DNA of 35,410 nucleotides from Ornithinimicrobium sp. Its GTDB lineage: Bacteria; Actinomycetota; Actinomycetes; Actinomycetales; Dermatophilaceae. The notes under the pieces are model-generated. The model saw only the letters and a list, made by a program, of their open reading frames with translations. It ran no database searches and was not told the origin of the DNA. Positions 31,228-34,668 of this stretch are shown here, piece after piece (position 1 is the first letter of the stretch; every line of letters begins with the position of its first letter). The translations under genes were made by a program, and so were the position numbers. The stretch lies in NCBI RefSeq assembly GCF_030537745.1, contig NZ_JAUNVI010000030.1, positions 1-35,410 on the forward strand, given 5' to 3'.

Positions 31228-31494
31228 GTGGCAAACATCAAGTCCCAGATCAAGCGCGTCAAGACCAACGCCAAGCGCACCGAGCGCAACCGGGCTGCCA
31301 AGTCCGAGTTGCGCACGTGGGTCCGCAAGTTCCGCGAGGCTGCGGACAGCGGCGACGCCGCCAAGGCCTCCGATGCGCTCAAGCTGGCCTCCAAGAAGCT
31401 CGACAAGGCGGTGTCCAAGGGCGTTCTGCACGCCAACCAGGCCGCCAACAAGAAGTCAGCGATGGCCAAGCGCTTCAGCAGCATCGGCGCCTGA
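31228..31494 (+). CDS. rpsT: Small ribosomal subunit protein bS20
   Basis: This 88-residue basic protein begins [26 protein letters not shown] and ends [20 protein letters not shown], the bS20 pattern of long helices that bind 16S rRNA. The GTG at 31228 follows AGGAAG by about 9 bases. A non-AUG start is also known for E. coli rpsT, where it takes part in autoregulation; whether that applies here is not known. The frame is open upstream to 30967 but that stretch has no bS20 character. The long leader suggests post-transcriptional control. Confidence 0.97.
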
Positions 31495-31536
31495 GACCAA
31501 CGGCGACGCAGGCTCACCAGCCCGCGCAGCAGGATC

Positions 31537-31592
31537 CGCTGCAGGCGCCCCCTGCCCTGATCTGATCAGGGCAGCAACGGGCGCCTGCGGCG
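31537..31592 (+). terminator. Large two-part hairpin after rpsT
   Basis: The outer stem pairs 31537-31550 with 31579-31592 (14 pairs including one G-T). The inner stem pairs CTGCCCTGA (31552-31560) with TCAGGGCAG (31566-31574), loop TCTGA. The internal loop is one base against four. It lies 42 bases after the rpsT stop with no T run, and its right arm overlaps the -35 zone of the next promoter. Confidence 0.6.
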
Positions 31593-31599
31593 TATCCGC

Positions 31600-31605
31600 T
31601 AGACT
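31600..31605 (+). promoter_or_regulatory. -10 box of the leuS leader transcript
   Basis: TAGACT predicts a start near 31612, four bases before an ATG. No other TANNNT box occurs between here and leuS, so this is the likely leuS promoter. Confidence 0.5.
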
Positions 31606-31615
31606 TATCGCCATC

Positions 31616-31651
31616 ATGACGACCCGTTGCGTGCTTACGCAGCCGCGCTGA
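31616..31651 (+). CDS. Candidate leuS leader peptide (11 residues)
   Basis: ATG to TGA encodes MTTRCVLTQPR. It begins about four bases after the predicted transcript start, a near-leaderless position. The single Leu codon is CTT, uncommon beside the CTG and CTC used throughout this window, and it falls in the loop of a small hairpin (TGCGT/ACGCA). The stop codon lies at the edge of a 9-bp hairpin, and a terminator follows 24 bases later, then leuS. This layout matches ribosome-mediated attenuation. With only one Leu codon, the sensed amino acid is uncertain. Confidence 0.45.
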   Translation: MTTRCVLTQPR

Positions 31652-31673
31652 ACGACGCACCACCCAGCGCGGC
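31642..31673 (+). other. Hairpin overlapping the leader-peptide stop codon
   Basis: GCCGCGCTG (31642-31650) and CAGCGCGGC (31665-31673) form a perfect 9-bp stem with a 14-base loop. A ribosome at the CTT codon or the stop would cover the left arm. Confidence 0.55.
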
Positions 31674-31675
31674 GG

Positions 31676-31703
31676 ACCCCTCCTGATCGAGAGGGGTTTT
31701 TTT
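31676..31703 (+). terminator. Intrinsic terminator in the leuS leader (candidate attenuator)
   Basis: ACCCCTC (31676-31682) pairs with GAGGGGT (31691-31697) around an 8-base loop. A run of seven T residues (31697-31703) follows. This is the only classical T-tract terminator I see in the window, and it ends 43 bases before the leuS ATG. Confidence 0.75.
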
Positions 31704-31746
31704 GTGCACAAGGACATCTTCGACAGGCCAGGACAGGACGAGGACG

Positions 31747-34668
31747 ATGAGCGAGCGCACCCCGGAACACCGGTACACCGCTGAGCTGGCGGGGCAGATC
31801 GAGGCCCGCTGGCAGGACCGCTGGGAGTCCGAGGACACCTTTGCCTCAGCCAACCCGGCCGGGCCGTGGGCGGCGCCGGACGATCCGCGCCTGAAGAAGG
31901 GCCACACCATCGTCATGGACATGTTTCCCTACCCGTCGGGGGCCGGGATGCATGTCGGACACCCCCTGGGTTATCTCGCGACCGACGTCTACAGCAGATT
32001 TCTGCGCACCACCGGCCAGAACGTGCTCTACACGATGGGCTTCGACGCTTTCGGGCTGCCGGCCGAGCACTACGCCGTACAGACCGGTCAGCACCCGCGC
32101 GTCACCACCGAGGCCGCGATGGCCACCTACCGACGCCAGATGCGGATGATCGGGCTGTCCCACGAGCAACGACGCGGCTTCGCCACCATCGACCCTGACT
32201 ACTACCGCTGGACCCAATGGATCTTCACTCAGATCTTTGAGTCCTGGTATGACGAGTCCGCGCCCGCGCGGCGCGGGTCAGGGACCGGCAGGGCGCGTCC
32301 GATCAGAGACCTGGTCACGCAGTTCGAGGGGGGCGAACGCTCGACCCCGGATGGTCGCGCGTGGGCCGAGCTCACCGCCCGCGAACGATCAGACATCCTG
32401 GATCAGCACCGGCTTGCCTACGTCTCGGCGGCACCGGTCAACTGGTGTCCTGGTCTGGGCACGGTGCTGTCCAACGAGGAGGTCACCGTGGACGGCAAGT
32501 CCGAGCGCGGCGACTTCCCCGTCTTCAAGCGCAATCTGAGCCAGTGGAAGATGCGCATCACCGCCTACGCCGATCGACTGGTTGACGACCTGGACCGGCT
32601 CGACTGGCCGGAAAAGGTCCGGCTGATGCAGCGCAACTGGATCGGGCGGTCCTTCGGGTCAGACGTCACCTTCGGCTCGATCCCCACCGTGGACGGCGGC
32701 ACCACCGGCCTGGAGATCTTCACCACCCGGCCGGACACGATCTTCGGTGCCACCTTCATGGTCGTCGCGCCCGAGCACCCCGTGCTGGCGCAGATCGTCC
32801 CGCCCGCCTGGCCCGAGGGCACCCACCCGGCCTGGACCGGTGGCGCGGCCGACCCGCGCACGGCGGTGTCGACATACCAACGAGAAGCCTCGTCCAAGAG
32901 CGACCTCGAGCGTGAGCGGCACGACGCCAAGCACAAGACCGGGGTCTTCACCGGCGCGTGGGCGACCAACCCGGTCACCGGCACTGCGCTGCCGGTGTTC
33001 GTGGCCGACTACGTGCTGATGGGCTACGGCACCGGCGCGATCATGGCGGTGCCGGGGCAGGACCAGCGGGACTGGGATTTCGCCAAGGCTTATGAGCTGC
33101 CGATCATTCGTACGGTCCAGCCGACCCCCGAGCACCCCCAGGACGAGGCGTTCACGGGCGAGGGCCCGGCGATCAACTCGGTCACTGACGGGTTGAGCCT
33201 GGACGGGATGGGCGTGGCCGAGGCCAAGGAGGCGACGATCGCCTGGCTGGAGGAGCAGGGGGTCGGGACCCGGCAGGTCACCTACCGGTTGCGGGACTGG
33301 CTCTTCAGTCGGCAGCGTTACTGGGGTGAGCCTTTCCCGATCGTCTGGGACGCTGACGGCATCGCGCACTCAGTGCCCGATGCGATGCTGCCGGTGAAAC
33401 TGCCGGAGGTGCCGGACTACAGCCCGCGGACCTTCGACCCGCAGGACGCGCAGTCCTCGCCCGAGGCGCCGCTGGCGCGCGCGGGCGAATGGGTCGAGGT
33501 CGACCTTGACCTGGGGGAGGGCCTGGGTGTGCAGCGCTATCGCCGAGAGACCAACACCATGCCCAACTGGGCTGGCTCGTGTTGGTACCACCTGCGCTAC
33601 CTGGATCCAGCCAACACCGAGGCGCCCGTGGACCCGGCCGTCGAGAGCTACTGGATCGGCCCGCGACCGGCACCGGTCGCCAGCGCGCCACCCGGTGCGA
33701 CGGACCCCGGCGGTGTCGACCTGTATGTCGGTGGGGTCGAGCATGCCGTGCTGCACCTGCTCTACGCCCGCTTCTGGCACAAGGTGCTCTTCGACCTGGG
33801 TTATGTCTCCAGCGAGGAGCCGTTCCGCCGGCTGATCAACCAGGGCATGATCGAGGCCTACGTCTACCGTGACCAGCGCGGTTTCCCCGTCCCCGCAGCC
33901 GAGATCGAGGAGCACCCGTCCACGGACGGTGGCGCCTCGACCTACACCTGGAAGGGCGAGCCCGTCACTCAGGAGTACGGCAAGATGGGCAAGTCGCTCA
34001 AGAACGTCGTTACCCCTGATGAGATGTGTGAGCAGTACGGCGCGGACACCTTCCGCGTCTACGAAATGTCGATGGGGCCGCTGGAGCAGTACCGCCCGTG
34101 GGAGACCCGCGCGGTCGTCGGCTCCCAGCGCTTCCTGCAGCGGCTGTGGCGCAACGTCATCGACGAGGAGACCGGGGAGGTCGCCGTCGTCGACGACGCG
34201 ATGGCCGAGGCGACCGACAAGGCGCTGCACAAGACGATTGAGGGCGTGCGCGCCGACTTCGCGGCGCTGCGGACCAACACCGCGATCGCCAAGATGATCG
34301 AGCTCAACAACCACCTGACCAAGCTGGACGTCGTGCCGCGTGCCGCCGTCGAGCCGCTCGTGCAGATGGTCGCGCCGGTCGCGCCGCACCTGGCAGAGGA
34401 GCTGTGGTCGCGGCTGGGGCACGCGGACTCGCTGGCCTACGAGCCGTTCCCGGTGGCCGACCCGGCCAAGTTGGTCGAGGACACCGTCACCGCGATCGTG
34501 CAGGTCAAGGGCAAGGTCCGGGACCGGTTGGAGGTGCCGGCCGACATCGACGCGGCGTCGCTGGAGGCGCTGGCGCTGGCCAGTCCCAAGGTGGTGGCGA
34601 TCATTGACGGAGCGCCGGTGCGCAAGGTCATCGTCCGGGCCCCCGGCCTGGTCAACGTGGTCGTCTGA
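31747..34668 (+). CDS. leuS: Leucyl-tRNA synthetase
   Basis: This class I synthetase charges tRNA-Leu. It is 973 residues long. The HIGH motif is HVGH (from H69) in [15 protein letters not shown]. The editing (CP1) domain spans roughly residues 280-500, with a [12 protein letters not shown] segment. The KMSKS motif is KMGKS (K746) in [12 protein letters not shown]. The catalytic domain also has the usual [12 protein letters not shown]. Actinobacterial-type inserts occur near residues 160-215 and 620-650. The ATG at 31747 follows GAGG at about 4 bases and removes a 15-codon open extension. No separate promoter is evident, so expression probably depends on read-through of the upstream terminator. 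Confidence 0.97.

Follow-up and report, generated by a model that had tools for sequence, protein, structure and literature searches.

A conserved leader upstream of leuS in Ornithinimicrobium sp., probably a leader-peptide attenuator with a single leucine codon

Results

The leucyl-tRNA synthetase gene (leuS) of Ornithinimicrobium sp. is preceded by a short leader, here called leuL, that is a real element with a functional appearance. Sequence comparison suggests that it probably acts as a ribosome-mediated, leucine-dependent transcription attenuator of leuS. The leader lies between rpsT and leuS in the window, which is the whole stretch of DNA that was analyzed (35,410 nucleotides, contig NZ_JAUNVI010000030.1). 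A sequence-only reading of this DNA had proposed a leader-peptide attenuator of leuS, and the proposed kind of element is supported by conservation, which extends to the ORF, its CTT codon, the hairpin at the stop codon, and the terminator. The parts, with the evidence for each, are as follows.

31541..31588, + strand: long inverted repeat after rpsT (sequence)
31600..31605, + strand: -10-like box TAGACT, proposed leuL-leuS promoter (sequence; TAnnnT comparison among leaders)
31616..31651, + strand: leuL, probably leaderless leader-peptide ORF MTTRCVLTQPR* (sequence; congeners; published Streptomyces lividans leuL2)
31634..31636, + strand: CTT, the sole Leu codon of the window leuL and proposed control codon (CTT at this position in 102/106 unique leaders)
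31642..31650, + strand: RNA segment 1, GCCGCGCTG, 5' arm of the stop-codon hairpin (fold, alignment, covariation counts)
31665..31673, + strand: RNA segment 2, CAGCGCGGC, 3' arm of the stop-codon hairpin (fold, alignment, covariation counts)
31674..31703, + strand: intrinsic terminator, GGACCCCTC / ctgatcga / GAGGGGTTT + T7, segments 3 and 4 (fold, terminator scan, aligned terminators of relatives)
31747..34668, + strand: leuS, leucyl-tRNA synthetase, proposed controlled gene (LeuS matches; ATG at 31747)

The leuL ORF comprises 11 codons and a stop (ATG ACG ACC CGT TGC GTG CTT ACG CAG CCG CGC TGA; 31616 to 31651). This ORF, the 9-bp hairpin at its stop codon, the terminator with T7, and leuS after them can all be read between 31600 and 31747, where the sequence-only reading had placed them. 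The CCGCG of segment 1 begins 9 nt past the first base of CTT. The stop-codon hairpin (31642-31650 with 31665-31673) spans the leuL stop and is present in the MFE fold. The terminator stem (31674-31682 with 31691-31699) and T7 at 31697-31703 were obtained from both the fold and the terminator scan, which gave two overlapping calls in 31450-31800 versus a shuffled mean of 0.2. No Rfam family reached the gathering score anywhere in the window. Folding energy was rejected as weak evidence, with a z score of -1.3 for the whole leader of 148 nt and 17 of 200 shuffles equally stable. Since folding energy alone is insufficient, it is conservation that places the element beyond chance.

LeuS was matched in 182 of 186 family genomes, and the upstream regions were compared for 110 of the 182, made up of 29 loci of the genus (window included) and 81 others. 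Ornithinimicrobium sp. CNJ-824 and sp. INDO-MA30-4 are among the best LeuS relatives that have a name; the leader and upstream bases are the same as in the window in CNJ-824 (L005) and in a further locus of the same genus (L091). In 90 of the 110 loci, an ORF containing CTN-N6-CCGYG stands ahead of a terminator-like hairpin, a count that comes from 91 regular-expression matches after L149 was discarded by eye as false, and the motif is absent from 20 loci, L149 counted among them.

Individual loci were inspected by eye. One of the 20 motif-less loci (L110) carries a leuL variant, MTVFRLLLIQAVLS*, in which the CCGCG core is swapped for other complementary arms and the 6-nt distance from CTT is unchanged. 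Another of the 20 (L144) carries a degenerate leuL, VAQHRLRRQPR*, with CGC (Arg) at the CTT position; it retains the hairpin arm and the terminator-like hairpin and is a possible decay intermediate. In further family loci, e.g., L142 and L146, no leuL was seen in the 260 nt upstream.

To be selected, a leader had to contain CTN-N6-CCGYG, start in frame, and reach a stop within 45 nt, and this selection inflates the counts of frame, spacing, and codons among the resulting 106 unique leaders. Of these, 72, the window among them, were aligned (alignment A1) and used for a covariance model; leaders with odd terminators (L141, L180, L031, and L111) were dropped before alignment, as was any row whose similarity to an earlier one exceeded 0.93. 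The model matched 129 of 246 sampled class genomes at an E value of at most 0.01, and 99 of these at 1e-6 or better; three genomes of this sample (G000, G007, and G147) were also sources of training rows. A LeuS motif was located 271 to 373 nt past CTT in each of the 30 best-match loci fetched. The model replaced a strict DNA pattern that matched 13 of 296 class genomes and had 0 control matches, yet missed the window because the window loop differs; the LeuS motif follows in 12 of the 13 strict-pattern loci and not in L194. No covariance-model match was obtained in the 11 genomes listed for family f4.

In the window's own genome, the leuL site scored 59.5 bits and the next-best site 21.2 with this model, which was trained partly on the window. 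The next-best site (L238, G000:C85:29696-29781; E value of 0.04) lies upstream of an ilvB-like acetolactate synthase gene and has the ORF MHFSVVLIT*, with a terminator-like hairpin and a T run after it, which is a known kind of leader (ilvL). Two strong leuL matches occur in a single genome, G390 (3.0e-15 and 3.5e-12). Many weaker matches in class genomes have E values between 1e-5 and 1e-2, and some of these may be other attenuators, e.g., that of ilvB.

The promoter assignment in the window rests on comparison because the consensus scan called no promoter anywhere in 31450-31800. A TAnnnT box stands 5 to 12 nt upstream of ATG or GTG in 105 of the 106 unique leaders, and in all 105 the start is in frame with CTT. 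The -10 box of the sequence-only reading is present as TAGACT at 31600-31605 and agrees with this comparison, and it found no backing in the scan. Ten nucleotides separate TAGACT from the ATG of leuL, a spacing that points to a probably leaderless start.

These observations also bear on another reading, in which the terminator is an ordinary one that ends the upstream rpsT transcript, the ORF is meaningless, and leuS has an unseen promoter downstream. On the strand that carries leuS, rpsT ends at position 31494, and in 21 of the 29 genus loci it is found no more than 1.5 kb ahead of leuS, which is consistent with such a terminator. Nevertheless, the region before leuS retains the ORF, CTT, spacing, and hairpin in many genera. 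In addition, as noted earlier from the sequence, no second promoter is visible, none being called at 31704-31747, though the same scan also misses the leuL promoter. We consider this reading highly improbable. The long inverted repeat at 31541-31588 has no T run and was not called by the terminator scan; it is perhaps the end of the rpsT transcript.

The most constant feature of leuL is a rare Leu codon, CTT, 6 nt ahead of CCGYG in the 5' arm of the hairpin. The comparison with relatives that the sequence-only reading had proposed for the ORF, CTT, and terminator came out in favor of conservation, with the ORF, a CTN codon 6 nt before CCGYG, and a terminator-like hairpin kept in 90/110 family loci and with the Leu codon at the fixed position being CTT in 102 of 106 unique leaders. 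CTT is otherwise rare, contributing 29 of the 846 Leu codons across 15 window genes. When the spacing was left free (0 to 15 nt), a Leu-Leu pair ahead of CCGYG and a terminator was matched in 100 of 190 upstream regions, and in 94 of these the spacing was 6 nt. The stop lies 6 nt past the first base of CTT, ahead of CCGCG, in 17/106 leaders and 15 nt past it, beyond CCGCG, in 87/106. Since the 6-nt spacing is the same with either stop position, the constraint on it seems to lie in the RNA rather than in the peptide.

In theory, attenuation becomes more sensitive through the use of codons seldom found in bulk mRNA and through which of the synonymous codons is chosen. The rare synonymous codon CTT in leuL agrees with this.

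A small hairpin with CTT in its loop had also been described. The stem can be written (TGCGT-GCTT-ACGCA) and is absent from the MFE fold. Among the leaders, a stem of at least 4 pairs around the Leu codon occurs in 76/106, versus a mean of 61 when the codon order was shuffled, and one of at least 5 pairs in 44/106, versus 26; both differences are modest.

The observation that the window leuL has only one Leu codon is correct. Congeners mostly have three, and several encode MTTRCVLLLTQPR*, with three Leu codons; relative to these, the window ORF is without CTCCTC (two Leu codons) and has kept CTT. By this comparison, the window leuL has been reduced to one Leu codon from the run of three seen in its congeners, the codon retained being the one most constant among relatives. 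Counted over the CTT position and the eight preceding codons, the leaders have from 1 to 6 Leu codons, with one in 3 of the 106, two in 10, three in 71, and four in 20. The three single-Leu leaders are those of the window (L001), L114, and L117, and all carry CTT, where the regular expression demanded CTN and allowed any third base.

The same reduction would be expected of a decaying remnant that has lost two Leu codons and its leucine response and that lowers leuS transcription by a fixed amount. Besides the codons missing relative to the same-peptide congeners, the terminator loop and the -10 box of the window are unlike those of these congeners, and no pairing between segment 2 and the terminator loop is predicted for the window; in other loci of the family, leuL was not seen by eye (e.g., L142 and L146) or looks degenerate (L144). 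Against this, the window keeps CTT in frame and at the 6-nt spacing, its CCGCG hairpin and T7 terminator are intact, and the other two single-Leu leaders likewise carry CTT. Decay is in our judgment unlikely, and a working attenuator remains the preferred reading.

The helices of the proposed attenuator were analyzed for covariation. Helices 1:2 and 3:4 together pair in 92.8% of cells, and in at most 52.8% when the structure is slid. There are 33 double-changed cells versus 11.8 in whole-structure shuffles, with 0 of 500 shuffles reaching 33, and 30 of the 33 fall in helix 1:2; when the structure is slid by -1, 25 double-changed cells remain. Two other measures are weaker, these being the number of pairs with a double change (6 versus 4.2; 33 of 500 shuffles reach 6) and the number of pair types (15 versus 13.2; 72 of 500 reach 15). 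Not every measure shows clear covariation of 1:2; the complementarity of its arms is kept through changes. In Micromonosporaceae loci, CCGTG is found with CACGG or a G-U variant.

The sequence-only reading had found no antiterminator competing with the terminator stem, and this caveat holds, as none convincing is predicted in the window. The candidate joins GCGCGG in segment 2 to CCTGYGY in the terminator loop, with at least 4 pairs in 71/106 leaders; five Streptomyces-type leaders (L008, L019, L026, L028, and L037) fold 2:3 with 5 to 8 pairs. This pairing showed no covariation, with 83.5% paired cells versus 83.8% in shuffles, and with 80.7% and 88.1% when slid by -2 and +2, respectively. Its energy showed no gain over loop shuffles (mean of -5.83 versus -5.98, lower in 44/106 leaders), nor did the expected pairs (3.19 versus 3.31, higher in 59/106; Wilcoxon P of 0.90). 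When the ribosome site (segment 1) was removed from the partition function, pairing of segment 2 with the loop rose in 96/106 leaders, largely because segment 2 is freed. The search for alternative structures advised by the sequence-only reading thus found 2:3 pairing possible in many relatives and none in the stalled-state MFE fold of the window, where two calculations gave 0.24 and 0.85 expected pairs and an antiterminator is not predicted. A pairing of the Leu codon run with the 3' arm of the terminator, seen by eye, was dropped: a stalled ribosome would cover the run, so that the pairing would act with the wrong sign.

The proposed attenuator could also do without a base-paired antiterminator. 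Hairpin 1:2, at 0 to 3 nt from the terminator stem, would then help the terminator, and a ribosome on CTT would remove this help. Segment 2 lies 1 to 3 columns from the terminator stem in the alignment and directly adjoins it in the window, and changes are compensated in 1:2 and not in 2:3, in line with such assistance. The antiterminator hairpins reported for Streptomyces (PMC1262725) and the 2:3 folds of the five Streptomyces-type leaders speak for base pairing instead. We regard assistance without an antiterminator as possible but doubtful.

Discussion

The leader would work as follows. Transcription would start at the ATG or no more than a few bases from it, as the -10 spacing suggests, and leuL would be translated without a Shine-Dalgarno sequence. 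With charged tRNA-Leu for CTT plentiful, the ribosome would pass CTT and leave at the stop, upon which segments 1 and 2 would pair. Segment 3 would then be free to pair with segment 4, and RNA polymerase would stop in the T run near 31703. With this charged tRNA scarce, the ribosome would wait with CTT in the A site and cover CCGCG, so that 1:2 could not form, the terminator would be disturbed, and leuS would be transcribed. A ribosome footprint extends about 12 nt beyond the first base of the A-site codon; because CCGCG lies 9 to 13 nt downstream, a ribosome on CTT would mask segment 1. Loss of 1:2 could result in readthrough in either of two ways. Segment 2 may delay the terminator through the pairing with the terminator loop that is possible in relatives, or the adjoining hairpin 1:2 may assist the terminator, an assistance that would be gone.

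Tentatively, and with more doubt than conviction, we propose that CTT serves as a one-codon ruler. A single rare CTT, 6 nt before the hairpin, would be the decisive signal in many genera of the class, with the waiting ribosome just covering the 5' arm and the other Leu codons being accessory; the window would be a natural minimal version working with one. The element was seen across many genera of the class, and what varies least in it is one codon and one spacing. Its single-Leu copies offer natural experiments on the minimum number of control codons required by an attenuator.

Synthetase genes are also controlled by T-box riboswitches, which respond to the level of charged tRNA and bind tRNA directly. 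The control of a synthetase gene is common to the T-box and the proposed leuL mechanism, and direct tRNA binding sets the T-box apart; no T-box covariance-model match at the Rfam gathering score was found in the window. Leaderless polycysteine ORFs were reportedly described in mycobacteria by Canestrari in 2020. Like leuL, they are leaderless, amino-acid-sensing short ORFs, with Cys codons in the mycobacterial case, and translation attenuation is named as their mode in PMC13236596. The ilvB/ilvL attenuator of actinobacteria (PMC1262725; for Mycobacterium tuberculosis ilvB1, PMC13236596) resembles leuL in having a short branched-chain leader peptide and a terminator. Unlike leuL, it controls biosynthesis and uses Val, Leu, and Ile codons, and the genome of the window has its own candidate, MHFSVVLIT* (L238).

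The closest counterpart is found in Streptomyces. The sequence-only reading knew of no leuS attenuator described in actinobacteria, and the belief that there is none is wrong: classical leuS attenuators were predicted in Streptomyces coelicolor and Streptomyces avermitilis in 2005 (PMC1262725), and leuL2 of S. lividans, listed in 2021 (PMC8079986), is leaderless, encodes MRAVRLLLSEPR*, and stands before leuS together with a terminator. In the PMC papers surveyed, reports of a leuS attenuator are confined to Streptomyces; a comparative study published by Lopatovskaya et al. in 2010, outside this survey, may already document part of the wider spread of leuL. As leuL2 is described, it and the window leuL both lie before leuS, both are leaderless mini-ORFs ending in L-[ST]-[EQ]-P-R-stop, and both have an intrinsic terminator. 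They differ in that the window has one Leu codon and leuL2 three, and an antiterminator is not predicted in the window. The window leuL lies just upstream of leuS, is a short ORF with Leu (one codon only) and presumably leaderless, and is separated from leuS by a terminator. It also shares one alignment and model with loci encoding the published MRAVRLLLSEPR* (L019, L026, and L216, which stand in the same alignment or among the same model matches as the window). By these sequence features, the window leuL belongs to the actinobacterial leuS attenuator (leuL2) family.
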